A stretch of 35,080 nt of DNA from a virus, in IMG/VR virus record IMGVR_UViG_3300012954_000030, positions 1 through 35,080 of that record, one strand, 5' to 3'. The position numbers and the translations under genes are program-made. This document shows, one piece after another, positions 11,450-28,552 of the stretch. The notes under the pieces are model-generated. The model was not told the origin of the DNA. It saw nothing but the letters and a program-made list of their open reading frames with translations, and searched no databases. How positions within the stretch are numbered: the stretch's first letter is position 1; each line of letters begins with the position of its first letter.

Positions 11450-11458
11450 ATATACTAC

Positions 11459-11466: not shown

Positions 11467-11487
11467 CATATACAAAGAGAGAAGTAT

Positions 11488-12311: not shown

Positions 12312-12313
12312 TT

Positions 12314-12658
12314 ATGAGTATAAAAGACATGATAACGCCTGAGGGCAAAGGACCAAAGAAAGTGGCAGACGTAAGTAAAAAAGTAAATGTAGAGTTAGAA
12401 GTTGATACTTCTGTTAAGGACTTAGGTCCTAATCCATATGCTAAACTAATTCATTTAGCACGAGCAGTAGATAGTTGGAGAATTTTTCCACGTATCTTTA
12501 TTACAACGTATATCTATTTGTTATACAAAGTTGTAATTTGGTACATGGCTATTCCAACTCCAACAATGGAACAATCAGGTTTGGTTTCTATTGTAGTTGG
12601 TGCTGGTGCGGCATGGTTTGGATTATATACGGGTTCTAGTAAAAAATCAGACAAATAG
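12314..12658 (+). CDS. Two-helix membrane protein, holin candidate
   Basis: The 114-residue protein has a soluble N-terminal 45 residues, then two hydrophobic helices: FPRIFITTYIYLLYKVVIWYM (about 57-77) and SGLVSIVVGAGAAWFGLYTGS (about 88-108), with a short Pro-rich turn between and a basic end (SSKKSDK). Two helices, small size and a charged tail fit a class II holin-like protein, and it lies with the endolysin and spanin-like genes. I recall similar GAGAAWFGLY proteins in marine phages but not a proven function. The holin role is inferred. Confidence 0.55.
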   Translation: MSIKDMITPEGKGPKKVADVSKKVNVELEVDTSVKDLGPNPYAKLIHLARAVDSWRIFPRIFITTYIYLLYKVVIWYMAIPTPTMEQSGLVSIVVGAGAAWFGLYTGSSKKSDK

Positions 12659-12661
12659 TAT

Positions 12662-12690
12662 TTGACTTTCGTTTGAAATAAGTATATAAT
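12662..12690 (+). promoter_or_regulatory. Strong sigma70-type promoter, TTGACT-17-TATAAT
   Basis: TTGACT at 12662-12667, a 17-base spacer, and a perfect TATAAT at 12685-12690. The predicted start, seven bases past the -10, is 12697, the A of the dnaJ ATG, and there is no ribosome binding site. It should drive dnaJ-def-clpA-16283. Confidence 0.75.
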
Positions 12691-12696
12691 ACTACT

Positions 12697-13548: not shown

Positions 13549-14044
13549 TAGTTGGTTAGAAAAAAAGGTAAATCCTTTTGATTTCGAAAAGCATGATGCC
13601 AAAGAAGTTGAAAAAGAAATGATAGAAATTATGGACAAGCACCAAGGTGTAGGTCTTGCCGCTAACCAAGTTGCTTTTGAAGGTCAAATCTTTGTAATGA
13701 AGCCTGAAGGATTAAAAGGATATGAAGACAATAAAAGTTTTGCAGTTATTAATCCAAAGATCGTAAAAGTAACTGAAGAAACTATTATAGGAGAAGAAGG
13801 GTGTTTAAGTTTTCCATTACTATACTTAAAGGTAAAAAGACCTTACGGTTTGGTAGTAGAATGTCTTGACTCTAACGCAAAAGAGTGTACACTAGAACTT
13901 GTAGGATGGAATGCTAGAATCTTTGGTCACGAGTATGATCATCTTTACGGAATAAATTTTATAGATAGAGTATCTAAATTAAAACTTGATATGGCAAAAA
14001 AGAAACAACAAAAGTTGATTAAAAGATTTACGGAGAAAAATTAA
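13526..14044 (+). CDS. def: Peptide deformylase
   Basis: All three family motifs are present in this 172-residue protein: GVGLAANQ (41-48), EGCLSFP (91-97, metal-binding Cys) and HEYDH (135-139, two metal His and the catalytic Glu). It removes the formyl group from new N-terminal methionines. Length is normal for bacterial enzymes and the C-terminus is Lys-rich. It overlaps dnaJ by 23 bases and touches clpA (TAATG), so the three are coupled. Phage deformylases in cyanophages are known; here it sits in a proteostasis operon rather than with photosynthesis genes. Confidence 0.92.
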   Translation: MKLVTYPNSWLEKKVNPFDFEKHDAKEVEKEMIEIMDKHQGVGLAANQVAFEGQIFVMKPEGLKGYEDNKSFAVINPKIVKVTEETIIGEEGCLSFPLLYLKVKRPYGLVVECLDSNAKECTLELVGWNARIFGHEYDHLYGINFIDRVSKLKLDMAKKKQQKLIKRFTEKN

Positions 14045-16293
14045 TGGTTGAACCCAGTGAAAGTTTACAAGGTGTATTTGATAAAGCAATTGATACTGCT
14101 AAAAAGTTAAATCACGACTATGTAACAATTGAGCATTTACTGTTTAGTATGCTTTGTGATGAAACATTCGCAAATGTAGTAAGTGGTTCGGGTGCTGATC
14201 CAGAATTTATAAAAAAGAACGTAGAAAATTATCTCAAAGTAAAATGTGATGATATAATCCGTACTGACAAAAGCAAAAAGTTTAAGCCTAAGAAAACACA
14301 GGCAGTAGAACGTGTGTTAAACAGAGCATTTACACAGGTTTTATTCAGTGGTAGAAATTTAATTGAAATACAAGACGTATTTTTAAGTATGTTCAGTGAA
14401 AAGAAAAGTTGGGCATTATATTATATCAACGAAGCAAAAATTGATAAAGAAAGATTCCAAGATTACATACATAGCGAAGTTGAAACTTCATTTGAAGATG
14501 AAGAAATGGCTGGCATGGCTCAACGAGCATTACGTTCATATACAACTAATCTAAACGCAGAAGTTGAAACAGGAAAAATTGATCCTGTAATAGGTAGAGT
14601 TGAGGAACTAGAAAGTATTGCCCTTGCACTTGGACGTAGAAGTAAGAATAATGTATTACTTGTAGGTGATCCAGGAGTAGGTAAAACTGCTATCGCTGAA
14701 GGACTTGCATGGAATATTGTTAATGGTGCAGTACCAGAATTCTTAAAAGATTATAGTGTATACAACTTAGATATAGGATCTATGTTAGCAGGGTCTAAGT
14801 ATAGAGGTGACTTTGAAGAACGTTTTAAACTTGTAATGGCAGGATTAAAGAAGCGAGGTAACACTATTGTATTCATAGATGAAGCACATATGATAAGTGG
14901 TGCAGGTGCTGGCGGCGGATCAAACAGTAATGATCTTGCTAATATGCTCAAACCTATCCTTACAAAAGGCAATATTAAAGTTGTAGCAAGTACTACGTGG
15001 GAAGAATATAGAAAATATTTTGAAAAAGACCGTGCTTTAATGAGAAGATTTGCTAGAGTTACAATAGATGAACCTAGTAAAGAGATTACAAGACAAATTT
15101 TAATGGGAATTAAAAAATACTACGAGCAGTTCCATAGTGTTAACATCACTGAGGAGGCTGTAGATGCTTCAATCAAATTAAGTGTCAAATATCAGTCTGA
15201 CAAAAAATTGCCTGATAAAGCAATTGACTTAATTGATTGTGCCTGTGCAAGATTTAAATTGAAAAAAGTTAAAGGTGACAAAGAAGTTACTGAGGACAGC
15301 ATTCAGTTTGAACTTGCAAAGGCGGTGCAAATGCCTGTAGAACAGATTGCTGAAACTGAAACAAGCAATTTAGCAAACTTAGAAAAGAACTTGAAAGCAG
15401 AAGTTTACGGACAAGACGAATGTATTGATGCTATTACAGATAAAATACACGTTTCACAAGCAGGACTTAAAGAAGAAAACAAACCTGTTGGTTCTTTTGT
15501 GTTTATGGGTCCAACTGGTGTTGGTAAAACTGAAACTGCTAGACAACTTGCAAGTAATTTAGGTGTAAAACTAGTAAGATTTGATATGAGTGAATATCAA
15601 GAGAAGCATTCTGTTGCTAAACTTATTGGCTCACCTCCAGGTTATGTAGGTTTTGAAGAAAATGCAGGACTATTAATTACTAAATTACAAGAAGCACCTA
15701 ATTGTGTATTGTTATTAGATGAAATAGAAAAAGCACACCCTGATGTTTCTAGTTTATTACTACAAATCATGGACAATGGTTTTGTTACAGGGTCTAATGG
15801 TAAACAGGCAGATTGTAGAAATATTGTTTTGATCATGACTACTAACTTAGGTTCACAAGAAGCAGAACAAAATAACATAGGGTTTGGTGGCACTATGGAA
15901 AAAGAATACGAAGACAAAGAACTTAAAAAGTTTTTTCCACCAGAATTTAGAAATAGACTTGACGGTATAATGACATTTGGTAAACTAGATAAGAATACAA
16001 TGCTTAAAATTGTAGGTAAGTTCTTAGTGATACTTAAAGATATGCTTAAAGAAAAAGATGTGTCAGTTACTATTACCGATGAAGCAATAGATCAATTAGT
16101 TGAGCAAGGTTTTGATAGCAAAATGGGTGCTAGACCTTTACAACGTATTATTGATAAAGAACTAAAAACTCCACTATCTAAAATGTTGCTATTTGGAAAC
16201 CTTAAAGACGGCGGCGTATTAAATATAGACTATAAAGATGAAAAGTATATATTAAATACTGAGGTTAAGGAAAAAATAGCAGATGAAGTTTGA
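14044..16293 (+). CDS. clpA: ClpA-like double AAA+ unfoldase with an IGF loop
   Basis: The 749-residue protein has a Clp N domain (about 1-140), AAA+ domain 1 with Walker A GDPGVGKT (208-215) and Walker B VFIDEAH (275-282), then AAA+ domain 2 with Walker A GPTGVGKT (489-496), Walker B LLLDEIEKAHP (556-566) and a C-terminal GARPLQRII helix. ClpB's long middle coiled coil is absent, and length matches ClpA (758). A loop in domain 2 carries Ile-Gly-Phe (612-614), where ClpA has its ClpP-docking IGL. It therefore should dock on host ClpP and feed it chosen substrates; no ClpP or ClpS is in the window. It belongs to the dnaJ operon. Confidence 0.88.
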   Translation: MVEPSESLQGVFDKAIDTAKKLNHDYVTIEHLLFSMLCDETFANVVSGSGADPEFIKKNVENYLKVKCDDIIRTDKSKKFKPKKTQAVERVLNRAFTQVLFSGRNLIEIQDVFLSMFSEKKSWALYYINEAKIDKERFQDYIHSEVETSFEDEEMAGMAQRALRSYTTNLNAEVETGKIDPVIGRVEELESIALALGRRSKNNVLLVGDPGVGKTAIAEGLAWNIVNGAVPEFLKDYSVYNLDIGSMLAGSKYRGDFEERFKLVMAGLKKRGNTIVFIDEAHMISGAGAGGGSNSNDLANMLKPILTKGNIKVVASTTWEEYRKYFEKDRALMRRFARVTIDEPSKEITRQILMGIKKYYEQFHSVNITEEAVDASIKLSVKYQSDKKLPDKAIDLIDCACARFKLKKVKGDKEVTEDSIQFELAKAVQMPVEQIAETETSNLANLEKNLKAEVYGQDECIDAITDKIHVSQAGLKEENKPVGSFVFMGPTGVGKTETARQLASNLGVKLVRFDMSEYQEKHSVAKLIGSPPGYVGFEENAGLLITKLQEAPNCVLLLDEIEKAHPDVSSLLLQIMDNGFVTGSNGKQADCRNIVLIMTTNLGSQEAEQNNIGFGGTMEKEYEDKELKKFFPPEFRNRLDGIMTFGKLDKNTMLKIVGKFLVILKDMLKEKDVSVTITDEAIDQLVEQGFDSKMGARPLQRIIDKELKTPLSKMLLFGNLKDGGVLNIDYKDEKYILNTEVKEKIADEV

Positions 16294-16951
16294 TACTACA
16301 TATAAACTATTCTACGACAAATACAAGTATAAACTACTTGTAAAGAATACCGTAGCCTTCATTTTTAGAAACAAAAGATTAGATTATTCAAAAACTAGAA
16401 TTGACGAGATTCTAACAAATGAAAAAGAAGAAGGACAGTATGTATTCAAGTACGGACCACGTATTAGATTTGCTCAGTCAAGACCTGTTCCTGTAAATGA
16501 CGCAGAGGATTTGACTATCATACAAACTACACTAGAACGTGGTGAAGATTTTATGGTAAGATGCGAAAGTATTTGGTTATCTGTGTTCTCTAATAATAAA
16601 GATTGGCTACGTAGATTTGGTAAGAAATTAAATGCTGAAACTATATTCTTTGCTCCACCTGATAATATAGACATAGACAAAAATACTATTATACGTAAAA
16701 GATCCTGGCCTTGGTCTATAAGGATTACATTACAAGGTAAAGGAGATCCTGCACTTGCAGATTGGTTAGTAGCAAACAAAGATAAAGCAAAGGCAGGAGA
16801 TGCTCTGATACGAGATTTAAAACGTGGTTTTGACCTTAAAGGCCGTTATATATGGGTTAAAAATGAAGGTGCAGTTACTATGATTAGTTTATTTTTAGAC
16901 AAAGGACTGCTTAGACAAGACAAAGTAGTATACGTAGAAACAGATAAATAG
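16283..16951 (+). CDS. Conserved hypothetical protein, last gene of the dnaJ-clpA operon
   Basis: A 222-residue basic, soluble protein that starts 11 bases inside the clpA-like gene, so it is translationally coupled to it. It contains EGQYVFKYGPRIRFAQSRPVP, WLSVFSNNKDWLRRFGKKL, RKRSWPWSIRITLQGKGDP and a C-terminal strand-rich part with GAVTMISLFL. No catalytic motif or membrane segment is visible and no family is recognised. Being coupled to the unfoldase, it could be an adaptor that delivers substrates, but this is speculation from position alone. The last codons contain a late promoter box for the next gene. Confidence 0.55.
   Translation: MKFDTTYKLFYDKYKYKLLVKNTVAFIFRNKRLDYSKTRIDEILTNEKEEGQYVFKYGPRIRFAQSRPVPVNDAEDLTIIQTTLERGEDFMVRCESIWLSVFSNNKDWLRRFGKKLNAETIFFAPPDNIDIDKNTIIRKRSWPWSIRITLQGKGDPALADWLVANKDKAKAGDALIRDLKRGFDLKGRYIWVKNEGAVTMISLFLDKGLLRQDKVVYVETDK
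16943..16950 (+). promoter_or_regulatory. T4-type late promoter box GATAAATA with ATG at +1
   Basis: The box overlaps the last codons of the preceding gene. With the box at -13 to -6, +1 is 16956, exactly the A of the next ATG, and no ribosome binding site lies between. The transcript would be leaderless unless the in-frame ATG at 16980 is the true start. Confidence 0.6.
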
Positions 16952-16955
16952 TTGT

Positions 16956-17309
16956 ATGTCCAGCAATAGTACAATAATAATGAGTCAACAAACTCACCCA
17001 GGTGATAGCACAATTCAAACTGTCACTGGTGACAAATATAAAGGTGACGGATACTACGGTAGAGCCGATGGTTTCCACACGGTGCAGTATAATCTTACAG
17101 GATTTTTAGGCACAATTAAAATGCAAGGTACACTTGCAATTGACCCAGCAAGTACTGACTGGTTTGATATAACAGGCACAGATCATACACATGGTTCATC
17201 TGTAGATGGCACTATTTTTAAGAACTTTACAGGTAACTTTGTATGGGTAAGAGCAATAGTAAGTAACTGGACAGATGGCTCTGTGCAGAGTGTATTATTA
17301 AACCACTAG
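16956..17309 (+). CDS. Late beta-rich structural-type protein
   Basis: A 117-residue protein rich in Gly, Thr, Asp and aromatics: THPGDSTIQTVTGDKYKGDGYYGRADGFHTVQYN appears in pieces along residues 13-46, followed by GFLGTIKMQGTLAIDP and FVWVRAIVSNW. The pattern is a beta sandwich of the sort seen in phage decoration or fibre proteins, and I recall HTVQY-LTGF-GTIKMQ in marine T4-like phages. It starts at ATG 16956, the +1 of a late promoter; a second in-frame ATG lies at 16980. Virion component is inferred. Confidence 0.6.
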   Translation: MSSNSTIIMSQQTHPGDSTIQTVTGDKYKGDGYYGRADGFHTVQYNLTGFLGTIKMQGTLAIDPASTDWFDITGTDHTHGSSVDGTIFKNFTGNFVWVRAIVSNWTDGSVQSVLLNH

Positions 17310-17317
17310 GAGGATTT

Positions 17318-17590
17318 ATGAAGAACTTTATAAGCATAGTATTTGAAAACAAAGATGCTCCTGAAGTAGATGAATATCTTATTGATACAGTACTAGAATC
17401 AGCAGAACCTGGGTTATTAGAAGACTTAACAGATTATGAATCATACGAAACAGAAGGCGATAAAACAGTCGTTACAGTAGGATTACATAAAGCATTAAGC
17501 GAAGATGAATCCAGCGAAGTAGCAAATTTACTAGCAAATAAACTGTTTGATCAGGGTTATAGCAACTTCGATATAGAAATCAGCATATAG
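17318..17590 (+). CDS. Small acidic hypothetical protein
   Basis: A 90-residue acidic protein with an alternating strand-helix pattern (FISIVFENKDAPEVDEYLID, then KTVVTVGLHKALSEDESSEVANLLANKLFDQGY and a final FDIEISI strand), consistent with a ferredoxin-like alpha/beta fold. A strong AGGAGG ribosome binding site precedes the ATG. No family is recognised. It lies 8 bases after a probable structural gene, so it is likely late. Confidence 0.55.
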   Translation: MKNFISIVFENKDAPEVDEYLIDTVLESAEPGLLEDLTDYESYETEGDKTVVTVGLHKALSEDESSEVANLLANKLFDQGYSNFDIEISI

Positions 17591-17598
17591 CATATATT

Positions 17599-17606
17599 GA
17601 TAAATA
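17599..17606 (+). promoter_or_regulatory. T4-type late promoter box GATAAATA
   Basis: The predicted start is about 17612, with a TGAGGTAA ribosome binding site and the ATG at 17638. It probably drives the 17638-21070 run. Confidence 0.65.
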
Positions 17607-17637
17607 CTTGTAATACGTATTATGAGGTAATATTGCT

Positions 17638-18012
17638 ATGACTAAATCTTTTAAAGACTATCTAGGTGAAATACAAGAAAGGGATTTATACCCTGAAGAA
17701 ACCTATGAAGGTAATGACTTTTATTATGCTTACGGTGATATGTACTTCAACGATGACGAGATTGTTGACGAAGCGGAGTACAGAGGACGTAAAGTAAAAC
17801 TTGGCAAACCTATGCAAGGTGACGTCAAGAAGTTCAAAGTATACGTTAGAGATCCTAAAACAAAGAACATTAAAAAAGTAAATTTTGGTGATCCTAATAT
17901 GAGAATTAAAAAATCTAATCCAGCACGTAGAAAAAGTTTCCGTGCTAGACATAATTGTGATAATCCAGGACCAAGAACTAAAGCAAGATATTGGAGTTGT
18001 CGTAAATGGTAA
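17638..18012 (+). CDS. Late protein with basic Cys-containing C-terminal domain and possible capsid-targeting N-terminus
   Basis: The 124-residue protein begins SFKDYLGEIQE (residues 4-14), which resembles the T4 internal-protein targeting peptide (TYQEFIAE) and contains L-x-E and I-x-E sites. An acidic segment (15-45) follows, then a basic domain with VYVRDPKTKNIKKVNFGD and RKSFRARHNCDNPGPRTKARYWSCRKW at the C-terminus (in pieces). I recall that basic domain as widespread in marine T4-like phages. The C-terminal basic, Cys-containing part could bind DNA or metal. Late promoter upstream; overlaps the next gene by 7 bases. Internal head protein is an inference. Confidence 0.6.
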   Translation: MTKSFKDYLGEIQERDLYPEETYEGNDFYYAYGDMYFNDDEIVDEAEYRGRKVKLGKPMQGDVKKFKVYVRDPKTKNIKKVNFGDPNMRIKKSNPARRKSFRARHNCDNPGPRTKARYWSCRKW

Positions 18013-18344
18013 AAATAAATGAATTCCATGATAGCGAACAGGACGACAATAAACTAAATTTTAGTATTGTTCACGATTTGCATACACATATGAAAAACGA
18101 TCCTATGTTTTATAGGAAACAATATTACCCAACTATGTGTGGTTGTCAAGACAAATTGCAAAAAGGTGAATCTATAGGCCCAGAAGATTTAATGGATATG
18201 ATTAACAAAGGTGTTAAGCATTATTGCAACAAATACGATTTACCTAAACGTCCAGATGATTTACTAGCACAAGAAGAAGTTTTATCTTTAGCAGAAAAAA
18301 TCTATGGAGAAGAAATGGAGTCGATGAGAAAAGGTGATTACTAA
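18006..18344 (+). CDS. Late conserved hypothetical protein
   Basis: A 112-residue helical protein with FYRKQYYPTMCGCQDKLQKGE, GPEDLMDMINKGVKHYCNKYDLPKRPDDLL and EEVLSLAEKIYGEEM. I recall a similar FYRK-YYP-M-C-QD pattern in marine T4-like phage proteins of unknown function. It has cysteines in CGC and HYC that might bind metal or form a bridge. It overlaps the gene before by 7 bases and touches the nucleotidyltransferase start (TAATG). No enzyme motif is visible. Confidence 0.6.
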   Translation: MVKINEFHDSEQDDNKLNFSIVHDLHTHMKNDPMFYRKQYYPTMCGCQDKLQKGESIGPEDLMDMINKGVKHYCNKYDLPKRPDDLLAQEEVLSLAEKIYGEEMESMRKGDY

Positions 18345-19381
18345 TGCTTCTAAGACATCTAACAGAGAATCAGAAGTCGGCTGTATTTGCATTCGGAAGA
18401 CTTAATCCTCCAACAATAGGACACAAGAAACTAGTAGATAAAATTAAATCTATTCCTGGTGATCATTTTCTATTTTTAAGTCATACACAAAAACCAGCAA
18501 CAGATCCTTTAACACATCAACAAAAAGTTTCATTCGCACAAAAAAGTTTTGGTGCAGATATTACCATAGGTAGTGATGGTGTAAGAACTATCATTGATGC
18601 TATGAAAAAATTAGAAAGTTTAGGTTATACAAAAATTGTATATGTAGCAGGAAGTGATAGAGTAAAAAGTTTTGACGAATTATTAAAAAAGTATAACGGT
18701 GTTGAATATAATTTTGACATTATTGAAATAGTAAATGCTGGAGAAAGAGATCCTGACGCCGAAGGTGCAGAAGGAATGAGTGCAAGTAAAATGCGTTACC
18801 ATGCAAACAAAGGTGAGTTTGATGAATTCAAAGACGGTGTTGCAGGTGATGAAAAATTAGCAAAAGATATGTACGATGCAGTACGTTCAGGTATGGGCAT
18901 AAGTGAACAAGACTTAGATGAATTAATTGTAAAACAGCAAAAGCCTAAACTAGATGTGCTTAATAATATTTCAAGCAGAAAAGACAATGAACCTTTTCCT
19001 TTAAGTTGGAATGCTAATCCAGATGAGATTACAGTAGGTGGTAAAATTTTTATTGCACCTGATCAAGCAAATAGATTTTTACGTTTTTATGATGGACAAG
19101 AAAAAGAAAATCAAGAACTAATGCAAAAGGCATTAAGAAGTGCAAAAACAACTGCTAACTTATTTAAAAACTTAGGTATTAAGTTTGATTGGAAACAAGA
19201 TGAAAACTTTGCTGATGGTAAAAATCCTGGAGACAAAGGTAGTTTAAAAGCAAAAGTAAAAGGCAAAGTAACATTATCAAAAGCAAAGAAATTAAAATCT
19301 AAAAAGAACGCAACACCCAGAGATAAACAATTAGCAAATTGGTTTATTAATATGCACAAAGGCAAAAAGAAGAAAAAATGA
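18344..19381 (+). CDS. HIGH-superfamily nucleotidyltransferase with Lys-rich C-terminus
   Basis: The N-terminal about 160 residues are a Rossmann-like nucleotidyltransferase: FGRLNPPTIGHKKLV (17-31; TIGH is the H-x-G-H-type motif), YVAGSDRVKSF, then SASKMR (146-151). This resembles NMN adenylyltransferases and related enzymes that use ATP. The remaining 185 residues are not recognised and become very basic, ending GKKKKK. The start LLRHLTEN has an L-T-E site like a capsid-targeting peptide. Late expression and this tail are unusual for a metabolic enzyme and suggest a virion-associated one; the substrate is unknown. Confidence 0.65.
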   Translation: MLLRHLTENQKSAVFAFGRLNPPTIGHKKLVDKIKSIPGDHFLFLSHTQKPATDPLTHQQKVSFAQKSFGADITIGSDGVRTIIDAMKKLESLGYTKIVYVAGSDRVKSFDELLKKYNGVEYNFDIIEIVNAGERDPDAEGAEGMSASKMRYHANKGEFDEFKDGVAGDEKLAKDMYDAVRSGMGISEQDLDELIVKQQKPKLDVLNNISSRKDNEPFPLSWNANPDEITVGGKIFIAPDQANRFLRFYDGQEKENQELMQKALRSAKTTANLFKNLGIKFDWKQDENFADGKNPGDKGSLKAKVKGKVTLSKAKKLKSKKNATPRDKQLANWFINMHKGKKKKK

Positions 19382-19500
19382 GAGCAAGAGAGTTTATAAA
19401 GGAAAAATGGAGCAACAAGTATAAGAAAAGTATTAACTGCTCTAATCCTAAAGGATTTTCACAAAAGGCTCATTGTGCAGGTAGAAAGAAAAAGAAGTAA
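19378..19500 (+). CDS. Basic 40-residue miniprotein
   Basis: A 40-residue ORF from ATG 19378 (overlapping the previous stop, ATGA) to TAA 19498-19500, which in turn overlaps the next ATG. It starts RAREFIKEKW, with an EFIKE site close to the T4 targeting peptide (EFIAE), and continues KSINCSNPKGFSQKAHCAGRKKKK. I recall the CSNPKGFSQKAHC block, with its two Cys, from marine T4-like phage proteins. Almost every fourth residue is Lys. It is probably a DNA-associated or internal head protein; function unproven. Confidence 0.6.
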   Translation: MRAREFIKEKWSNKYKKSINCSNPKGFSQKAHCAGRKKKK

Positions 19501-19718
19501 TGGACATAGATACATTAAAAAAATTAGCAGGTATTAATGAGTTTCAAGGATACACTGAATACAAAATAGATGAAAATCCTAGCATTACTGCAACTGCACT
19601 AAAACAAAAAGAAAGAGATATGGGTATTAAGCCAGGAGACAAAGACTGGTTTAAACTTTGGTTTTCAAAACCTTACATGACAGGGCAAGTTCAATTTAGA
19701 GGGCGTAAAAAGAAATGA
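19500..19718 (+). CDS. Small basic hypothetical protein
   Basis: A 72-residue protein starting DIDTLKKLAGINEFQGY (an I-N-E site at 12-14) and ending MTGQVQFRGRKKK. The middle holds LKQKERDMGIKPGDKDWFKLWFSKPYM. It overlaps both neighbours (TAATG before, ATGA after), so it is translated in the same coupled run. The Lys-rich end matches the two genes before it. No domain is recognised. Confidence 0.55.
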   Translation: MDIDTLKKLAGINEFQGYTEYKIDENPSITATALKQKERDMGIKPGDKDWFKLWFSKPYMTGQVQFRGRKKK

Positions 19719-21070
19719 GATTCAAAGAGATTTCAGAAGGAGTAGGATTAGTCGTTCCTGGTGTAAACACAACACCAGATGTAGGTCCTAATGAAATCAA
19801 AAAGCAGGCCGCTAAACTTGGATTAAAGGTTGACAAAAACGGTGTACCAGTGTATACTATGCATAAAAAGGCTCACAAAAATAGTGATCCTAATAAATTA
19901 TTTAATTTAGGTATGGCAGAGTCAAAAACAGATGAATGGAAAATAATGCCCCAAACAATTAAGCCTATGGGTTTAATACATAAGCCGGGCAAAGGTCCTA
20001 ACAACAGATTTGATTTTAAAAACAAAGGTAATAATAAAGCAAACGAAGTAACTGCAAAAGAACTATCTAGTGCAAGTGAAATATACGTAGACATGGACGG
20101 AGTATTAGTTGATTTCTTTGGTCCTTGGACAAAACTTTTAGGTGTAAGTAATTGGCGTGAAATTAAAGACATAAATGCCGCACTACAAAAAATCAGAGAT
20201 ACAGAAGATTTTTGGATTAAATTACCAAAGGCACCTAATGCAGATAAGTTACTTGGAATAATAAAAGATATTAAAGGCGATTATACAATATTAAGTGCTC
20301 CATTGGCAGACGATCCTAGAGTAGAACCTAGCAAACGTGAATGGGCAGAAAAAAATCTTACTTCTTTTCCTCCAAAGGAAATTATCATAAACTCAAACAA
20401 GGCAAAATATGCCACTCAACCAGATGGCACACCTAATATATTGATTGATGACTTTGGAACTAATATAGCCAAGTGGGAAGCGGCAGGCGGTGTTGGATTC
20501 AAACACAAGGACCACAAATTTGAAAGGACTGCTATGAATTTGAAAAAATATTTTGAGAAGCCTGCAAATGAACGTGAACTTTCTAAAGGTGAAGAAAAGG
20601 AAAAAGAACGTATTGTAAAAGGTATGAAAAAAGCAACTAAAGATTTCAAAAGCCGTTATGGTGACGATTATAAGGCGGTTATGTATGCTACTGCTACAAA
20701 ACTAGCAAAAGAAGGCTACGACCTAACAGCAGACGGATATGAGCATTTAAACCACCATCCTTTGACACAGGGTAAAGCACCTCCACAAGTAAAAGAGAAT
20801 GATTTAAATGAATTTGTTGAAAAAGAAGGTACCATACATATTGGAATTTTAAGACCTGTACAAAGACACAGAAGTTGGGATAAGTTAGCAAAGCAGATTG
20901 AAAGAGTTACAGAAGGTAATTATGCACCGCTTACAATAGACAAACTAGGCTTTATTGTTAATGGTCATCACAGATACGATGTGCTTAAAATGATGGGCGA
21001 AACACAGGTAAAAGTAAGACTTATGAAGGGTACTTTAAAAGAAATATTAAAGTTAATGCAGGATAAATAG
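19715..21070 (+). CDS. Fusion of HAD-like phosphatase, marine-phage module and ParB/sulfiredoxin-like domain
   Basis: Read in order, this 451-residue protein has a start MRFKEISEG (I-S-E site, targeting-like), a small KKQAAKLGLKVDKNGVPV module (29-46), a HAD-type domain with YVDMDGVLVDFF (124-135, nucleophile D126) and ILIDDFGTNIAKW (242-254, acidic motif IV), a basic KDFKSRYGDDYKAVMYATATKLAKEG module (309-334, in pieces), and a C-terminal ParB/sulfiredoxin-like domain with ILRPVQRHRSWDKLAKQI and VNGHHRYDVLKMMG (415-428). HAD enzymes remove phosphates, here perhaps from nucleotides. ParB-like folds can be nucleases, CTPases or kinases. The combination is unusual; the substrates are unknown. 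Confidence 0.6.
   Translation: MRFKEISEGVGLVVPGVNTTPDVGPNEIKKQAAKLGLKVDKNGVPVYTMHKKAHKNSDPNKLFNLGMAESKTDEWKIMPQTIKPMGLIHKPGKGPNNRFDFKNKGNNKANEVTAKELSSASEIYVDMDGVLVDFFGPWTKLLGVSNWREIKDINAALQKIRDTEDFWIKLPKAPNADKLLGIIKDIKGDYTILSAPLADDPRVEPSKREWAEKNLTSFPPKEIIINSNKAKYATQPDGTPNILIDDFGTNIAKWEAAGGVGFKHKDHKFERTAMNLKKYFEKPANERELSKGEEKEKERIVKGMKKATKDFKSRYGDDYKAVMYATATKLAKEGYDLTADGYEHLNHHPLTQGKAPPQVKENDLNEFVEKEGTIHIGILRPVQRHRSWDKLAKQIERVTEGNYAPLTIDKLGFIVNGHHRYDVLKMMGETQVKVRLMKGTLKEILKLMQDK
21062..21069 (+). promoter_or_regulatory. T4-type late promoter box GATAAATA with ATG at +1
   Basis: The box sits at the end of the HAD/ParB-like gene. The expected +1 is 21075, the A of the next ATG, so the message would be leaderless. 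The spacing is identical to that at 16943-16956. Confidence 0.6.
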
Positions 21071-21074
21071 TACT

Positions 21075-21266
21075 ATGCGTTTAAGAGAACTTACAAGTGT
21101 TAGAGAAACTGCTACACCAGGTGCAACTGTGGCTGGTAATATTGCTACTGTGGCAAATCCACATATTGCAAACAGCAAAAAGAAGCCTAAAAAGCAGAAA
21201 CCAACTGATAATGCACTAGATATGAAAGATGTCTCTTTATTTGGTGCGCCGATGAAAAGAACATAA
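21075..21266 (+). CDS. Small basic hypothetical protein
   Basis: A 63-residue protein with an N-terminal peptide RLRELTSVRET resembling those of neighbouring late genes, then an Ala/Thr/Gly segment (GATVAGNIATVANPHIA), a Lys/Pro-rich stretch (KKKPKKQKPT) and NALDMKDVSLFGAPMKRT. It has no membrane segment or catalytic motif. I recall the AGNIATV-NPH and NALDMK-VSLF blocks in marine T4-like phages. It starts at the predicted +1 of a late promoter. Confidence 0.55.
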   Translation: MRLRELTSVRETATPGATVAGNIATVANPHIANSKKKPKKQKPTDNALDMKDVSLFGAPMKRT

Positions 21267-21269
21267 ATA
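21262..21269 (+). promoter_or_regulatory. Late promoter-like box CATAAATA
   Basis: CATAAATA lies at the end of the small basic gene. The predicted start is about 21275, followed by AAGGAAGTG and the ATG at 21289. It is one base further from the GATAAATA form seen elsewhere. Confidence 0.5.
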
Positions 21270-21288
21270 CTAGTAAGGAAGTGATAAA

Positions 21289-21726
21289 ATGAGCAAAGAA
21301 GAAAAACAAAAACTTAGAGAAGGTTTAGCAGATATGGCTCAAAAAGTAGAGTCAGATCACGAAGTGCAAATGGCTAGATCAGATCTTTACAAGACTGCAA
21401 AATATTCAATCAAGTTACACGAGATGCTTAAAAATGTATCTGAAGCAGAAGGCTTAGATGGCTGGGTAGCGGCTAAGATTACTAAAGCGGCAGACTACTT
21501 AGGTTCAGTTTATCATCACTTAGACTATCAAATGAAGTACGAAGAAGCAAGTATCGGCGAAGGTAAAAAGAAAGACCAAGACGGTGATGGCGATATTGAT
21601 TCAGATGATTACATGAAAGCAAAAGATAAAGCAATCAAAAAAGCAATGAACAAAAAAGACGAATCAGTGTTTGTTGCATACAAAAATACACTAGCATCAC
21701 AATTATCTAAAAAACTAGGAGAGTAA
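21289..21726 (+). CDS. Late conserved protein with an EF-hand-like calcium loop
   Basis: The 145-residue protein is mostly helical: HEVQMARSDLYKTAKYSIKLHEML, then WVAAKITKAADYLGSVYHHLDYQM, a pattern I recall from marine T4-like phages. Residues 96-107 read DQDGDGDIDSDD, a canonical EF-hand or dockerin-type calcium loop (D-x-D-G-D-G-x-I-D), followed by a basic helix (KAKDKAIKKAM). Calcium binding is therefore likely and could stabilise the particle in sea water. The ATG has an AAGGAAG site. The start also contains an L-R-E site (9-11). Confidence 0.6.
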   Translation: MSKEEKQKLREGLADMAQKVESDHEVQMARSDLYKTAKYSIKLHEMLKNVSEAEGLDGWVAAKITKAADYLGSVYHHLDYQMKYEEASIGEGKKKDQDGDGDIDSDDYMKAKDKAIKKAMNKKDESVFVAYKNTLASQLSKKLGE

Positions 21727-21727
21727 G

Positions 21728-22555
21728 TTGAAACTTGAGGACTTAACAGAAGAGTTCGAAGGAATCAATGAAGCACCCCCAGGCGGTTGGCTCAATACCA
21801 AAGCGATTGCAGGTAAGGCCGATCAAGCAGTACGTACTGGAGCAGTAGGTAACTTCCTAGGTAAATTAAACAAAGCAGTAAATAAAAAGTTTTCCAGAGG
21901 CAGTGATATGAACGTGCCTGATGCCGGTATTAAAGACAAAGAAACAGATGATTATATTCAAGGCAAACAACCCGCAACAGCAAAGCCAAATGCTAAAGCA
22001 TCTGCTAAAGCATCTGCACCTAAAGTAGGAACTGTTAAACCAACAGTGGCTAAAGAGCCACCAGTAAACAGTCCAGACAAATTAAAAGTAGGCAGTGGTT
22101 TTAATAGTAAAGGTGTAGTATACACTTGGACAGGTACAGACTGGAAATCAACAGATGGAAAAACAACACTCAAACCAAATGATGGGTGGAATAAATTTAA
22201 AAACGCTCAGTCAAAAGGACAAGCATTTTTAGGTGATAGTTATAATCCATATTTTGATCCAAGTATTGCAGAGGCACCTCCAGCGCCAGGAATGGATCAA
22301 GCACCAGCAAAACCAGATCCAAAAGTTACACAACAGGTTGCTCAAAAGGCAACTGCGTTAAAAGGTGTAATGGGTGGTAAAGGCAGTGGTGCAATGGTGG
22401 CAAAAGGACTTGATAAAGTTGCCGCAGGAGAAACACTACCACCAAATATTATCAAAGCAATAGCCCCGTATGCTCAGGGCATCCAAGCAATACTTTCAAA
22501 TCCTCAACTAATGACCAAGTTCAAACAGTTGATGAAACAAGCACAATCTCAATAA
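21728..22555 (+). CDS. Late protein with low-complexity linker and targeting-like N-terminus
   Basis: This 275-residue protein starts at TTG 21728 behind AGGAG (from 21718). It begins KLEDLTEEFEGINEAPPGG, with L-T-E (6-8) and I-N-E (13-15) sites. A Lys/Ala/Pro-rich low-complexity linker (KPNAKASAKASAPK) spans about 85-110, followed by a short beta block (GVVYTWTGTDWKSTDGK), an Asp/Pro region, and a helical C-terminus (KGLDKVAAGETLPPNI, MTKFKQLMKQAQ). No family is recognised. Composition and context suggest a structural or internal head protein. Confidence 0.55.
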   Translation: MKLEDLTEEFEGINEAPPGGWLNTKAIAGKADQAVRTGAVGNFLGKLNKAVNKKFSRGSDMNVPDAGIKDKETDDYIQGKQPATAKPNAKASAKASAPKVGTVKPTVAKEPPVNSPDKLKVGSGFNSKGVVYTWTGTDWKSTDGKTTLKPNDGWNKFKNAQSKGQAFLGDSYNPYFDPSIAEAPPAPGMDQAPAKPDPKVTQQVAQKATALKGVMGGKGSGAMVAKGLDKVAAGETLPPNIIKAIAPYAQGIQAILSNPQLMTKFKQLMKQAQSQ

Positions 22556-22559
22556 ATAA

Positions 22560-22567
22560 AATAAATA
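22560..22567 (+). promoter_or_regulatory. Late promoter-like box AATAAATA (tandem)
   Basis: AATAAATA occurs at 22551-22558 and again at 22560-22567, the second with a predicted start near 22573. A GAGGAG site precedes the ATG at 22595. The first base of the box again differs from TATAAATA. Confidence 0.45.
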
Positions 22568-22594
22568 CTATTATTAATTAAACCGAGGAGTACT

Positions 22595-23248
22595 ATGGCT
22601 TTTCTAGTGCATAACCTACCGCCAATTGAAGTATATGTAAAGAAAGAATACTTATACGATTTGCAAAAAGGTCATGGGGAACTTACTCCTGGTATATGGA
22701 TTAGTATAAGAAGCATACAAGGTAAAGCACTTTACTTCGAAACATTACTCACAGAATATGGAGCACTATTTGATAAACTACCAATCAGTGCTTTTGTGTG
22801 GAAAACAGATTACAATCCTGAAGATCAACTTTCGTTAGATACATTACAGATATGGGATTGCTTTGATTACGATATCACAGTAATTAAAAAACCAATGTTA
22901 TGTGATTGTGAATTCTTTGGCAAAGATAAGAAAATGCACAAGGGTGAATATATGTTTACTCTTGATACTTGCCATAGAGATAACAACACAATAGATACTA
23001 ACTTTTCAGAACACGATCCTGAACACAAATCCTTTAACGTAATTAAATTAGACAATGGTCAATTCGCGGCTCAACCTAACAATAGAGTTATTTGGACTGA
23101 TCAAAGTTTAATCCCTGAGAAACGTTTGATGCCAGACTTTAAAGTTTGTTCACAAAACTATACAGTCGAAAACACTCCTAAATGGTCAGTAGGTCATACT
23201 GACGAATGGCAATACAAAACAAAGGACGAGGAAAGTGGATCCAGTTAA
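22595..23248 (+). CDS. Late conserved hypothetical protein
   Basis: A 217-residue protein with well ordered blocks: VYVKKEYLYDLQKGHGELTPGIWISI, ALYFETLLTEYGALFDKLPISAFVW, GEYMFTLDTCHRD and NGQFAAQPNNRVIW (all within residues 12-165). I recall the KEYLYDL, GIW-S--SIQG-ALYFET and QPNNR blocks from T4-like marine phages. No catalytic pattern is visible. It has a GAGGAG ribosome binding site and a late-type box upstream. The role is unknown; likely in late morphogenesis. Confidence 0.6.
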   Translation: MAFLVHNLPPIEVYVKKEYLYDLQKGHGELTPGIWISIRSIQGKALYFETLLTEYGALFDKLPISAFVWKTDYNPEDQLSLDTLQIWDCFDYDITVIKKPMLCDCEFFGKDKKMHKGEYMFTLDTCHRDNNTIDTNFSEHDPEHKSFNVIKLDNGQFAAQPNNRVIWTDQSLIPEKRLMPDFKVCSQNYTVENTPKWSVGHTDEWQYKTKDEESGSS

Positions 23249-23426
23249 ACGCAAAGAAGCATATAGACTTTTTTGGATTGTAAAAGGACATTTTAACGCC
23301 ACAGAATCTTGTATATTAGGTTGCTATGATAGTTATTTAAAACGTGTATGGTCAAATGAAGAAGCATACATATATGAAGAAGGTTTTGAGGAGGCCTATG
23401 CAAAAGTAAATGGCAACGATATATGA
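23235..23426 (+). CDS. Small hypothetical protein
   Basis: A 63-residue protein starting at GTG 23235 with GAGGA upstream, overlapping the end of the preceding gene by 14 bases and the next gene by 17. It is rich in aromatic and charged residues (AYRLFWIVKGHFNATESC, YLKRVWSNEEAYIYEEGFEEAY) and probably helical. Cysteines occur in SCILGC. No family is recognised; the call rests on the coupled overlaps and the start signal. Confidence 0.5.
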   Translation: MDPVKRKEAYRLFWIVKGHFNATESCILGCYDSYLKRVWSNEEAYIYEEGFEEAYAKVNGNDI

Positions 23427-24021
23427 CGATACAGAAGAAGACATTTATTGGCAGAACGCAGACCCTGACGAACTTTGGATATACGACAAATTAATTTTAT
23501 CACGTAAACTAGGATATACCTGTGGTCCAGCAGGTATAGATGTACCTAAACCAAACTTTTATATTGTTAAACCTTGTGTCAATGTACTAGGACTTGGACT
23601 TGGTGCTAAAAAAGTTACACTTGAAAAATACACAATGCATTTACCACACGGAAGTTTTTGGTGTGAATGGTTTGAGGGTAGACACTTGTCTGTAGATTAT
23701 AGATATGGTGAGCAGTGGTTGTGTGTAGAAGGATTTAAAAAGAAAAGTACTTTAATTAAATGGGACAAATGGGTAAAGACAGATGATGTTGTACCTTTGC
23801 CAAAAGTTTTAGAACAGTTCAAGAACAAACCAATTATCAACTGCGAGTTTATTGGTGGGAAATTAATTGAAGCACATTTTAGATCCAATCCAGACTTTCC
23901 GGACAATAGAAAAGAATTTATTCCTGTGTGGGAAGGACAAGATAAAAATCCTCCTAAAGGTTACCAATACATAGATTATCCAGATGTCCATGGACGTATA
24001 GGTGCTTTTATTAAATACTAG
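23410..24021 (+). CDS. Conserved hypothetical protein, weakly ATP-grasp-like
   Basis: A 203-residue soluble protein with DDTEEDIYWQNADPDELWIYDKLILSRKLGYTCGPAGIDVP (in parts) at the start, then SFWCEWFEGRHLSVDYRYGEQW and, near 145-160, INCEFIGGKLIEAHFRSNPDFP. The last block resembles ATP-grasp domains where an E-x-N or EAH-R pair binds Mg-ATP, but I could not find the rest of the fold, so this is only a hint. It overlaps the gene before it by 17 bases and ends two bases before the oxygenase gene. Confidence 0.5.
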   Translation: MATIYDDTEEDIYWQNADPDELWIYDKLILSRKLGYTCGPAGIDVPKPNFYIVKPCVNVLGLGLGAKKVTLEKYTMHLPHGSFWCEWFEGRHLSVDYRYGEQWLCVEGFKKKSTLIKWDKWVKTDDVVPLPKVLEQFKNKPIINCEFIGGKLIEAHFRSNPDFPDNRKEFIPVWEGQDKNPPKGYQYIDYPDVHGRIGAFIKY

Positions 24022-24022
24022 C

Positions 24023-24559
24023 ATGGACCCCCACGTACAGCATTTACAATTTTTGGAAACAGCAGAAGTGTTTACAGGAATGTATCCTGATGCAGAAGTT
24101 GTCAGACCAGTTCTTACAAGTAAGATAAAAGAACAAGGTGATCAGCAATATAGAAAAACAAATGTAAAAGCAGATATGACTAAATGGACAATGCAAAACG
24201 ATGTTGAGTTCAAAAAAATTATAGACTTTGCTATTGAGTTGATTACAAATGGATCTAATCCATTACCGCAAGGTGAATTTTTTGCAACTGATTGTTGGGG
24301 TGCAGTTTATAGACAAGGTGAAGAAACTTTACCACACGCACATCATCCTGCTACATGGAGTTTTGTTTATTATGTAGATGCTAGTCCATTTTGTGCACCT
24401 TTGGTATTTCCTACTGCCGAAAGAGCAATTAAACCAGAAACAGGTTTAATTATTATTTTTCCAGGTTGGGTAAGTCATAGTGTGCCAAAACAAGAAATTG
24501 ATAAAGAAAGAATTATTGTAAGTGGGAATATTGCAATTAAAAGACCACAAGCAACTTGA
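24023..24559 (+). CDS. 2-oxoglutarate/Fe(II)-dependent oxygenase (H-x-H type)
   Basis: A 178-residue protein of the putative 2OG-Fe oxygenase family common in marine phages: CWGAVYRQGEETLPHAHHPATWSFVYYVD (about 91-119, iron pair H105 and H107), FPGWVSHSV (distal His 152) and KERIIVSGNI (Arg 163, 2-oxoglutarate). The usual H-x-D is H-x-H, typical of this phage family as I remember it. The ATG at 24023 follows the previous stop by one base; an in-frame start at 24002 would lie inside the preceding gene. Substrate unknown. Confidence 0.65.
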   Translation: MDPHVQHLQFLETAEVFTGMYPDAEVVRPVLTSKIKEQGDQQYRKTNVKADMTKWTMQNDVEFKKIIDFAIELITNGSNPLPQGEFFATDCWGAVYRQGEETLPHAHHPATWSFVYYVDASPFCAPLVFPTAERAIKPETGLIIIFPGWVSHSVPKQEIDKERIIVSGNIAIKRPQAT

Positions 24560-24584
24560 CACAAAGAGAATTATAGTATATAAT
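24556..24584 (+). promoter_or_regulatory. Strong sigma70-type promoter, TTGACA-17-TATAAT
   Basis: A perfect consensus: TTGACA at 24556-24561, a 17-base spacer, TATAAT at 24579-24584. The predicted start is about 24591, with TTAGGAGAA and the ATG at 24609. The -35 overlaps the end of the oxygenase gene. It probably drives the DsbA-like gene and the run to the polymerase. Confidence 0.75.
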
Positions 24585-24608
24585 ACAAACACTAATTAGG
24601 AGAAAACA

Positions 24609-24869
24609 ATGAGCGATAGAGTATATGGAGCCGAAGAGAAAGCAAAACTTGAACGTCTCGTAAATGAAGGCGTAACAGTTATGCAAGAAGTTGAAGACCT
24701 TAGCATGGGTCTTAAAGATACTGTAAAAGCAGTAGCAGAAGAACTAAACATCAAACCAGCATTGATTAACAAAGCGATCAAAGTTGCACACAAAGGTGAC
24801 TGGGGCAAAGTTTCAAGTGATTTTGAAGATTTAGAAACACTAGTTGTTACAGTCGGCAAGGACAAGTAA
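24609..24869 (+). CDS. dsbA: DsbA-like DNA-binding protein (T4 late-transcription type)
   Basis: The 86-residue acidic, helical protein resembles T4 DsbA (89 residues), a double-stranded DNA-binding protein linked to late transcription, and cyanophage counterparts: KLERLVNEGVTVMQEVEDLSMGLKDTVKAVAEELNIKPALINKAIKVAHKG in order along residues 13-63. The ATG has a good AGGAG site and the gene is the first after a perfect sigma70 promoter, consistent with high early expression. The identity is from remembered pattern and size; an unrelated small helical protein remains possible. It is not the thiol oxidoreductase of the same name. Confidence 0.55.
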   Translation: MSDRVYGAEEKAKLERLVNEGVTVMQEVEDLSMGLKDTVKAVAEELNIKPALINKAIKVAHKGDWGKVSSDFEDLETLVVTVGKDK

Positions 24870-24872
24870 GTT

Positions 24873-25148
24873 TTGAACGCGGTAATTAATTTTTGGAAAA
24901 TAAGTTATAACACAGATCCAATAGCATTTTACTTTGAAATGGTTAGTGCAATAGCAGTAATCATAGGAAGTGCTATTCTAACCTGGACAGTCTTATTACC
25001 ACGACCTGATATTTTTATCCCATTTTATTGGATAGGTAGTGTAGCAGGATTTATAGGAGCATGGCGTAGAAATAGTGCTTGGATTGTTGTACTTACCGCG
25101 TGGTTCATTACTATGAACACAATAGCACTTTGGAGATTGTTTGGATGA
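24873..25148 (+). CDS. Small membrane protein, about three transmembrane helices
   Basis: The 91-residue protein starts at TTG 24873 and has hydrophobic helices at about 20-40 (MVSAIAVIIGSAILTWTVLL), 47-63 (IFIPFYWIGSVAGFIGAW) and 68-88 (AWIVVLTAWFITMNTIALW). It has no signal peptide and no family is recognised. The weak point is the start, since no ATG gives the first helix; AAGTAAG may serve as ribosome binding site. It overlaps the next gene by four bases. Confidence 0.5.
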   Translation: MNAVINFWKISYNTDPIAFYFEMVSAIAVIIGSAILTWTVLLPRPDIFIPFYWIGSVAGFIGAWRRNSAWIVVLTAWFITMNTIALWRLFG

Positions 25149-25456
25149 TTTATATGGTTGACATAGACGGAACTATATGTTATACTGAAGGTAATAATTA
25201 TGAAGATAGTCGACCAATACAAGACCGTATTGATCACTTTAATAAGTTATATGAAGAAGGCAACGAAATACATTATTGGACAGCCAGAGGAGCAAAGTCA
25301 GGCACAGACTGGCAAGGTTTTACAAAGGCACAATTACTCAGTTGGGGAGTTAAGTTTACTACCCTTAAATTAGGCAAACCACATTACGATATATGGATAG
25401 ATGATAAGGCACAAAATGACAAAGAATATTTTAGAAACAAAAGGTACACAGGCTAA
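25145..25456 (+). CDS. HAD-superfamily hydrolase-like protein
   Basis: The 103-residue protein has the HAD motifs: DIDGTI near the start (residues 6-11, nucleophile Asp), the WTARG motif (about 45-49) and IDDKA (86-90). This is the small polynucleotide-kinase-phosphatase or sugar-phosphatase-like subgroup; length is short but complete. The ATG at 25145 overlaps the preceding stop; a longer in-frame start at 25079 lies inside the membrane gene. It could act on phosphorylated nucleotides or sugars. A TTGACA-17-TATACT string inside the gene is probably chance. Confidence 0.65.
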   Translation: MIYMVDIDGTICYTEGNNYEDSRPIQDRIDHFNKLYEEGNEIHYWTARGAKSGTDWQGFTKAQLLSWGVKFTTLKLGKPHYDIWIDDKAQNDKEYFRNKRYTG

Positions 25457-25676
25457 ACCATATCAAGGATTAGCATGGTTGTTTACCGCTACACTAATAG
25501 GAGCGGCAACAATGGCGGCATTTAACTTATACCCTTGGTATAGTTATGCATTTACTGTTTCCAACTTGGGTTGGGTATTAGTAGGTTATCTTTGGAAAGA
25601 AAAGTCCTTGATTGTTTTAAACGCAGGACTTACAATAATTTATATTATTGGTCTAGTCAGTGACTGGATTTATTAG
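25416..25676 (+). CDS. Small membrane protein
   Basis: The 86-residue protein begins in another frame inside the HAD-like gene (41-base overlap). Hydrophobic helices lie at about 15-33 (GLAWLFTATLIGAATMAAF), 40-56 (SYAFTVSNLGWVLVGYL) and 63-82 (LIVLNAGLTIIYIIGLVSDW). The ATG at 25416 is chosen; another in-frame ATG at 25401 exists. It resembles the membrane gene at 24873 in size and hydrophobic pattern, perhaps as a diverged pair, but no family is recognised. Confidence 0.5.
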   Translation: MTKNILETKGTQAKPYQGLAWLFTATLIGAATMAAFNLYPWYSYAFTVSNLGWVLVGYLWKEKSLIVLNAGLTIIYIIGLVSDWIY

Positions 25677-25745
25677 AGCAAGGTACAGTCGGCCACAAGC
25701 GACAGTTTGGTATTTGTCAGCCTCAAATGACATACAGGAGAAAAA

Positions 25746-28415: not shown

Positions 28416-28416
28416 T

Positions 28417-28551: not shown

Positions 28552-28552
28552 T

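Follow-up and report, generated by a model that had tools for sequence, protein, structure and literature searches.

A cassette of late genes with N-terminal L/I-x-E tags in a marine T4-related phage: candidate cargo of the phage head

The cassette and its phage

This work concerns nine consecutive genes of a marine virus of bacteria, which lie between bases 17,638 and 22,555 of IMG/VR record IMGVR_UViG_3300012954_000030. The whole stretch of DNA analysed, a virus record of 35,080 bases, is called the window here, and the nine genes the cassette (Table 1). All nine products have an L/I-x-E site ([LI]xE) close to the N-terminus. We consider it likely that the cassette encodes head cargo: a prohead-targeting peptide would bring these proteins into the capsid, a protease of the gp21 type would cut them after L/I-x-E, and the products would be available for ejection with the DNA.

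From its open reading frames we read the window as part of a T4-related myovirus. They include DNA polymerase, sliding clamp, clamp loader, ThyX, PhoH, Clp and ferredoxin-like genes, the last matching phrog_3704, and for several such genes the relatives in close contigs match cultured T4-like phages. A comparison of bases 10,000-30,000 of the window with 50,697 phage records gave no near match at the DNA level; its close relatives are present as IMG/VR contigs. The list of open reading frames had a cut-off of 50 residues, so the 40-residue gene 19378 falls under it and was read separately.

Table 1. Features of the cassette, with positions in the window. Genes are named in the text by their first base.
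Feature	Positions	Strand	N-terminal peptide	Remark
ATAAATA, T4-late-promoter-like box	17600..17606	+		38 nucleotides before the first tagged gene, 17638
Cys-containing small protein, 124 residues	17638..18012	+	MTKSFKDYLGE	predicted cut after E11 (base 17670)
Protein of 112 residues	18006..18344	+	MVKINEFHD	[LI]xE; weakest tag
Adenylyl/cytidylyltransferase-like enzyme, 345 residues	18344..19381	+	MLLRHLTE	predicted cut after E8 (base 18367)
Lys/Cys-rich protein, 40 residues	19378..19500	+	MRAREFIKE	predicted cut after E9 (base 19404)
Protein of 72 residues	19500..19718	+	KKLAGINE at 7-14 (Glu at 14)	ambiguous tag
HAD 5'(3')-deoxyribonucleotidase-like protein with C-terminal ParB-like domain, 451 residues	19715..21070	+	MRFKEISE	predicted cut after E8 (base 19738)
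Protein of 63 residues	21075..21266	+	MRLRELTSVRE then TATPGATVAGNIATVANPH	likeness to predicted mature gp23 N-terminus of relatives
ATAAATA, late-promoter-like box	21263..21269	+		26 nucleotides before 21289
Protein of 145 residues with acidic DQDGDGDIDSDD stretch	21289..21726	+	KLREG	predicted cut after E11 (base 21321)
Protein of 275 residues, TTG start	21728..22555	+	MKLEDLTE	predicted cut after E8 (base 21751)

The two enzymes are treated below. Of the other genes, 17638 matches phrog_7595 (E-value 4.8e-12), and 21728 matches nothing in the phage records, Pfam or PHROGs. The T4 late promoter is TATAAATA. From 501 to 22561 in the window, ten of the twelve plus-strand ATAAATA sites lie 12-43 nucleotides upstream of gene starts and the minus strand has none; the total in the window equals the shuffle mean (12.2).

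The N-terminal pattern in the window

The first-pass annotation had named peptides of this kind at the starts of 17638, 18344, 19378, 19715 and 21728, with weaker forms at 19500, 21075 and 21289. All of them are there, and the ninth gene, 18006 (KINE), fits too. The pattern is real. In a loose test, which asks for [LI]xE within residues 2-16 and which an L-R-E at residues 3-5 suffices to pass, every gene of the cassette passes, and of the 53 remaining genes of the window six do (Fisher p = 2.5e-7). The enrichment holds also when the Glu must lie at residues 6-16 (8/9 against 6/53, p = 7.2e-6); the one cassette gene lost is 21075, whose sole [LI]xE is the L-R-E at 3-5. Both p-values are optimistic, since the interval was picked in the first place for showing the pattern. 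A shuffle test on mechanical gene calls (5000 shuffles) has the densest nine-gene stretch of the window start at 17638, with 7 matches (p = 0.0046). The densest stretch is the cassette also in two contigs of relatives, G021 (p = 0.0064) and G013 (p = 0.017), and is not the cassette in G006 (p = 0.34) or G023 (p = 0.47).

A lone [LI]xE proves little, for it turns up also in T4 genes that do not belong to the head module (10 of 36 in the two stretches read). The evidence for the tags is their conservation and clustering, not any single site.

Conservation of the tags in relatives

Orthologues of window genes were drawn from 115 contig loci. The non-redundant set of N-termini left out alignments starting after query residue 25, cases with no start within 8 residues of the expected one, other-strand open reading frames, genes with a start codon other than ATG, and near-duplicates, which agree at over 17 of the first 25 residues. 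Families reduced to under three members were dropped as well. In this set the nine cassette families have [LI]xE in 82 of 131 N-termini, against 11 of 112 for sixteen other window families; with Glu at 6-16 the counts are 64/131 against 11/112. A forced-start count, from which alignments beginning after query residue 25 and cases with no start at most 15 residues from the expected one were left out, gave 67/100 against 15/221 and is not relied on.

The families differ in how firmly they keep the tag. Loosely and then with Glu at 6-16, the counts are 11/11 and 8/11 for 18344, 9/16 and 8/16 for 17638, and 6/13 and 5/13 for 21075. The two counts coincide for 19378 (6/7), 21728 (4/5), 19500 (9/16) and 21289 (13/19, with relatives reading MREKDLKEGLAD and MKYKQIKEGLGD); the families of 18006 and 19715 are taken up in the Discussion. 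At least four of the seven failing relatives of 17638 represent starts that lie inside longer or fused proteins (L010, L011, L012, L017). In 19500 the LAGI stretch may, to judge from its sequence, be part of the domain.

The two enzymes keep their tags best when fuller-length proteins are aligned. Among 38 selected nucleotidyltransferases (18344), 37 have L or I at position 6 and 34 have E at position 8; among 27 selected HAD-type proteins (19715), E8 is found in all 27 and L or I at position 6 in 24. The commonest residues are nearly alike, MFLRELFE in the columns of 18344 and MRLRQLYE in those of 19715. The two proteins are of different fold by Foldseek, yet they have the tag MxLR[EQ][LI]xE in common, and the peptide is kept while the codons vary between genes and between relatives. 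AlphaFold gives residues 1-20 of 19715 a per-residue confidence (pLDDT) below 50, and residues 1-10 of 18344 a mean of 58, which is what one would expect of a flexible extension.

Written as a pattern, M.{0,2}[LIVF][RKT][EQDH][LI], this tag opens 15 of 67 open reading frames in the cassette regions of five contigs against 10 of 795 elsewhere (p = 8.5e-12). In this count proteins from the same family are not independent of each other, and the pattern was derived from two of the families. One of the 15, MDDIKQLQKL in G006, looks like chance. On the same contig another group of genes opens with tag-like peptides (MKLKELRKPL, MKIKEIFKG and MRFDEIKIVTE; L077:7509-14820, about 107.5-114.8 kb), which includes a relative of the cyanophage T4-GC71 protein.

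Two forms of the tag

The proposed comparison with the propeptides of T4 internal proteins stands up best for gene 17638, which has the T4 capsid-targeting layout. The T4 controls show both a long and a short form: IPII and IPIII begin MKTYQEFIAE, while Alt begins MELITE, gp67 MEGLIE, gp68 MLLIPE, gp21 MNEPQLLIE and gp22 MLKEQLIAE. In IPIII, residues 4 and 7 serve chiefly for targeting, and 8 and 10 for processing (PMC9026906; this and the other papers are cited from excerpts). We wrote the long form as a strict T4-type pattern, [FYL]xx[FY][LIMF]xE in the first 40 residues, which was fixed after seeing the S-CREM2 list discussed below. Among cassette genes only 17638 fits it, and 6 of its 16 non-redundant family members do so (MTKTFKDFLTE and MKNFKEYLSE, for example). 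Genes 18344, 19715, 21728 and 21289 lack such targeting residues, aromatic in IPIII, at about positions 4 and 7; 18344 and 19715 have a short-form tag like that of T4 Alt.

The cassette thus resembles two T4 systems, each in part. With IPII and IPIII it shares, in part of the 17638 family, N-terminal aromatics followed by I/L-x-E, a layout found also in the tag of the cyanophage nucleotidyltransferase. It differs in that the internal proteins have no annotated enzyme activity and the window cargo would include enzymes, and in that most window genes have a short tag lacking the aromatics. Alt is likewise an enzyme carried in the head, by its record note, with a very short N-terminal L/I-x-E peptide. 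It is an ADP-ribosyltransferase, however, whereas the window has nucleotidyltransferase and nucleotidase-like enzymes, several to a block. DGDGDIDS, YATATK and YWSC modules were considered as a second packaging signal and were dropped for too few matches.

The two enzymes

Gene 18344 is, by profile and fold, a nucleotidyltransferase of the NMNAT/PPAT type. The first-pass annotation had called it a nucleotidyltransferase, and phrog_3041 (E-value 1.6e-54) and Foldseek matches to NMNAT and PPAT bear this out. The best Foldseek E-value is 1.2e-5 and several subfamilies fit about equally; there is no Pfam match at an E-value of 0.1 and no PDB sequence match. The active-site motif of HIGH-superfamily nucleotidyltransferases is (T/H)xGH. 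In 18344 it reads NPPTIGH, with G26 and H27 invariant in the 38 aligned sequences, and G18, N21 and H27 are kept in all of these relatives. Counting duplicates, 525 of the 50,697 phage records have relatives of the enzyme, and most of these records bear the names of cyanophages.

Gene 19715 had been described as a HAD/ParB-like fusion, and the profiles agree: it matches phrog_2643 (E-value 1.7e-21) and, over residues 389-439, the ParB-like phrog_620 (E-value 3.9e-7). NT5C falls below the Pfam cut-off (E-value 0.0016), and Foldseek leads to deoxyribonucleotidases. Of its DxDG motif, D126, D128 and G129 are invariant in the 27 aligned relatives. In what is excerpted from PMC5512222, polyvalent proteins and the ParB-like P1 DdrB likewise join effector-like domains to a ParB-like domain in phage late-gene settings. 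They differ in having 2 to 15 domains; in 19715 two domains are annotated, and the head address is T4-like. Judged by their sequences, the two enzymes could, if delivered early, change the pools of NAD or nucleotides, and could nick DNA or degrade it.

Virion data from cultured relatives

Evidence that such proteins occur in the virion comes from cultured phages. As excerpted, PMC3037559 describes the T4-GC190 nucleotidyltransferase (there a citidylyltransferase) as a cyanophage core protein and has this enzyme in the virion of S-SM1 and not in that of S-PM2. The virion of S-CREM2 contains 52 proteins (PMC10665884, Table 3). There the strict pattern is found in 6 of 28 virion proteins outside the annotated structural set, in none of 24 structural ones and in 2 of 167 undetected proteins (p = 1.2e-4). 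The six are a SAM hydrolase (MKDFDSFLEE), an APH-like kinase (MKRFDAFLTE), the cytidylyltransferase (MKNFSSFLTE), two hypothetical proteins (MKDLHSFLTE, MQTFSMFFSE) and a Cas9-like protein (RFASFMAE, residues 18-25). Plain [LI]xE in residues 2-16 separates the classes less sharply, with 8/28 virion proteins outside that set against 20/167 undetected ones (p = 0.027) and 5/24 structural. The Cas9-like protein, gp12 (L059:7704-10313), also ends in KTFRDFLN.

In S-SCSM1, [LI]xE is found in 12 of 48 virion proteins against 34 of 234 others (p = 0.06), and the sole virion match to the strict pattern is the nucleotidyltransferase, MKSFLQFLKE. Its virion-flagged genes 89-93, 95 and 97 have the helicase and mazG genes on one side and the primase gene on the other. 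One of them, the 69-residue gp93 (L065:2827-3036), has a C-terminal tag-like peptide, KKKRTFKEFLEYIE. The virion list of S-SZBM1 includes a cytidylyltransferase (PMC9146016, Table 1), which starts MRFRQFIIE and fits the strict pattern. Among 14 cultured phages read, the nucleotidyltransferase fits it in eight (S-CREM2, S-SCSM1, S-SZBM1, Syn33, Syn19, P-RSM4, S-RIM8 and S-H68). By our own reading S-BM3 and DLP6 have near forms; S-H9-1 and S-PM2 have none, and HTVC008M and Melnitz do not fit. In S-PM2 the enzyme follows the T4-GC71 protein in a single fused product whose junction bears no tag (L290:286-2061; L057:23026-24805); the older S-PM2 record divides this stretch otherwise. An untagged enzyme absent from the virion would be a natural negative control, but it is suggestive only, because the older proteome may be less sensitive. 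Outside any cassette, a RimK-like ATP-grasp protein of Melnitz (L056:82-1131) starts MTQKFSQFITEEPKE and matches the strict pattern.

The presence of the tagged nucleotidyltransferase in virions has been shown by others, for relatives. The cyanophage T4-GC190 cytidylyltransferase/NMNAT (S-SM1, S-CREM2, S-SCSM1, S-SZBM1) has a domain homologous to 18344 and is reported from virions, and in the three sequences read (S-CREM2, S-SCSM1 and S-SZBM1) it has a T4-type tag. The window enzyme differs in its short tag and in that the matches span only residues 11-218 of 345 in those three.

Two other explanations bear on these data. The enzymes could act only in the infected cell, late, with their detection in virions due to carry-over and the motif having another role, such as in translation start or folding. 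Carry-over in virion preparations is raised by the authors of PMC10665884 and PMC9602691 in the excerpts, and the late-promoter-like boxes upstream of the cassette agree with late action. Against it, the peptide stays constant though its codons differ, proteins of different fold have it in common, and nucleotidyltransferase orthologues are reported in the virions of several phages; we regard this explanation as improbable. The other is that the sites are chance or ordinary N-terminal residues. [LI]xE is common, as the T4 genes outside the head module and the undetected S-CREM2 proteins show, and HTVC008M has no enrichment. Against chance stand the counts with Glu at 6-16, both in the window and among relatives, and the constancy of E8 in 19715 and 18344. 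As an account of the whole cassette, chance seems to us very improbable; it is disfavoured for 17638, 18344, 19378, 19715, 21289 and 21728, and possible for 18006 and 19500.

Head genes and the prohead

Of 14 contigs of further relatives, G021 (267,783 bases) and G023 (145,741 bases) have gp21, gp23 and portal. The order in G021 is portal, an 81-residue gene starting MILRELFYFD, a 200-residue gene, a 319-residue gene that we read as core-like, protease, a 367-residue gene that reads as scaffold-like, and gp23. The 81-residue gene occupies the position of T4 gene 67, and its start is nearly the same seven residues as those of the nucleotidyltransferase on the same contig (MLLRELF) and of a 21075 relative (MLIRELF); it is one of the ten tag matches outside cassette regions mentioned above. 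Its counterpart in G023, MILREFFYFD, also comes after the portal. Contig genes were called on 20-kb pieces, so that genes crossing a boundary are cut; the tail of the portal of G023, for instance, was called as an 89-residue gene. Of the remaining contigs, G024 (146,380 bases) has no gp21, gp23 or portal match; G022 (156,563 bases) has a portal 1.6 kb from the contig end, which may explain why gp21 and gp23 are missing there.

The predicted gp23 cut sites of relatives and cultured marine phages themselves have [LI]xE followed by A or T (KYLAE/AAT, KWLNE/TAT, FLAE/APT, LLTE/APT and FLSE/AAP). Those of the relatives, KYLAE/AATAGASSAGNVAT and KWLNE/TATAGSTSAGNVAT, are echoed in 21075 by VRE/TATPGATVAGNIAT, a likeness of about 15 residues. 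A gp23-like signature, written after the resemblance was seen, was run on loci shorter than 60 kb, where it matched 26 distinct 21075-like segments and the gp23 of G023 and G021, and nothing else. In some relatives the 21075-kind segment sits inside a longer protein.

These observations raise another explanation, that the tagged proteins are components of the prohead core or the head lining, targeted and cut, which act in head assembly and not as effectors. The tag that opens the gene in the gp67 position, the likeness of 21075 to mature gp23, and the small size and basic or acidic character of several cassette products all speak for it. Yet the catalytic residues of both enzymes are kept in all aligned relatives (38 and 27), and a purely structural role would not require such conservation. 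We think a structural role for the cassette as a whole unlikely.

Discussion

Reading the cassette as head cargo implies a series of steps. A short, probably flexible N-terminal peptide would bind the prohead core during assembly; a gp21-type protease would cut after L/I-x-E, freeing the mature protein inside the capsid; and the cargo would then be ready for ejection with the DNA, as with T4 Alt and the internal proteins. That cargo would be the NMNAT/PPAT-like nucleotidyltransferase, the deoxyribonucleotidase-like protein with its ParB-like domain, and small basic or Cys-containing proteins. Prohead targeting and cleavage of the tagged proteins are likely; their delivery into the cell with the DNA is plausible. 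Core binding, cleavage, packaging in the window phage, ejection and activity in the host, on NAD or nucleotide metabolism or by nicking DNA, are what we infer for this phage.

A number of results weigh against reading the cassette as head cargo, beginning with the tags themselves. The L-R-E at 3-5 swells the loose count, and [LI]xE is common in the T4 genes read outside the head module. The family of 18006 has [LI]xE in 18 of 32 loosely and in only 5 of 32 with Glu at 6-16, and the non-redundant family of 19715 in only 6 of 12 by either count. Of the window tags only that of 17638 has the aromatics at 4 and 7, which serve for targeting in T4. A weight matrix made from tags of the window group was tried as a predictor of virion proteins and rejected (S-CREM2, p = 0.90; S-SCSM1, weakly, p = 0.06). 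Since it did not carry over to S-CREM2, and only weakly to S-SCSM1, we treat the short tag and the T4-type tag as two forms.

The virion data are also uneven. The strict pattern is not enriched in S-SCSM1 (1 of 48 virion proteins against 2 of 234, p = 0.43), and some virion proteins of the S-SCSM1 and S-SZBM1 block have no tag, among them S-SZBM1 proteins 136 and 139 near the cytidylyltransferase. [LI]xE is not enriched in HTVC008M (4/18 against 5/25) and not significantly so in Melnitz (7/17 against 4/21, p = 0.13); both had looked like clear examples with a looser motif allowing V, M and F too, and these counts remove them as support. The NMNAT of S-CBWM1, described in the excerpt of PMC10665884 as a non-T4 cyanomyovirus with NMNAT in its virion, is untagged.

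A last group of results concerns the head genes. The window, which is a fragment, gave no match to gp21, gp23 or portal; gp21 and gp23 were not found in 16 close-relative contigs tested, nor Terminase_6C and a T4-type portal in 20, nor gp21 or gp23 in the other 12 of the 14 further contigs. The later finds of gp21, gp23 and portal families in other relatives indicate that the searches for them work. The head module of the window phage was probably not captured, and its protease is therefore unseen.

The first-pass annotation had also suggested that this would be an injected-enzyme system not previously recognised here, and in that wording the claim is not supported. The virion association of the enzyme and its possible entry into the cell are in print (PMC3037559, PMC9602691, PMC10665884); as excerpted, the latter two raise the possible entry of the nucleotidyltransferase into the cell, and PMC9026906 says that T4-like phages may be able to package a variety of proteins by means of targeting sequences. 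The pattern extends a known T4 principle. In the open-licence literature, among the matches listed, we found no title or abstract that joins targeting peptides with marine T4-like phages (PMC9026906 has both terms, with 'cyanophage' only in its reference list) and no paper linking the nucleotidyltransferase to a targeting peptide. As far as that literature showed, what is new is the tag on a widespread marine enzyme, the second form of tag in common with a portal-adjacent gene, and the gp23-like segment in 21075.

We also offer a broader idea, though only tentatively, since we would hesitate to call it probable. Marine T4-like phages may use a portable address to bring enzymes, in a set that changes, into the head for delivery. 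The address would have at least two forms, the T4-type MKxFxxFLxE and a lineage-specific MxLREL[FY]E in common with the portal-adjacent gene. The set would include the nucleotidyltransferase and the deoxyribonucleotidase-ParB protein, and in S-CREM2 also the SAM hydrolase, the APH-like kinase and the Cas9-like protein; 21075 would copy the predicted mature N-terminus of gp23. A tag that predicts head-borne proteins would make hypothetical late genes candidate injected effectors, and this prediction can be checked on phages already in culture.

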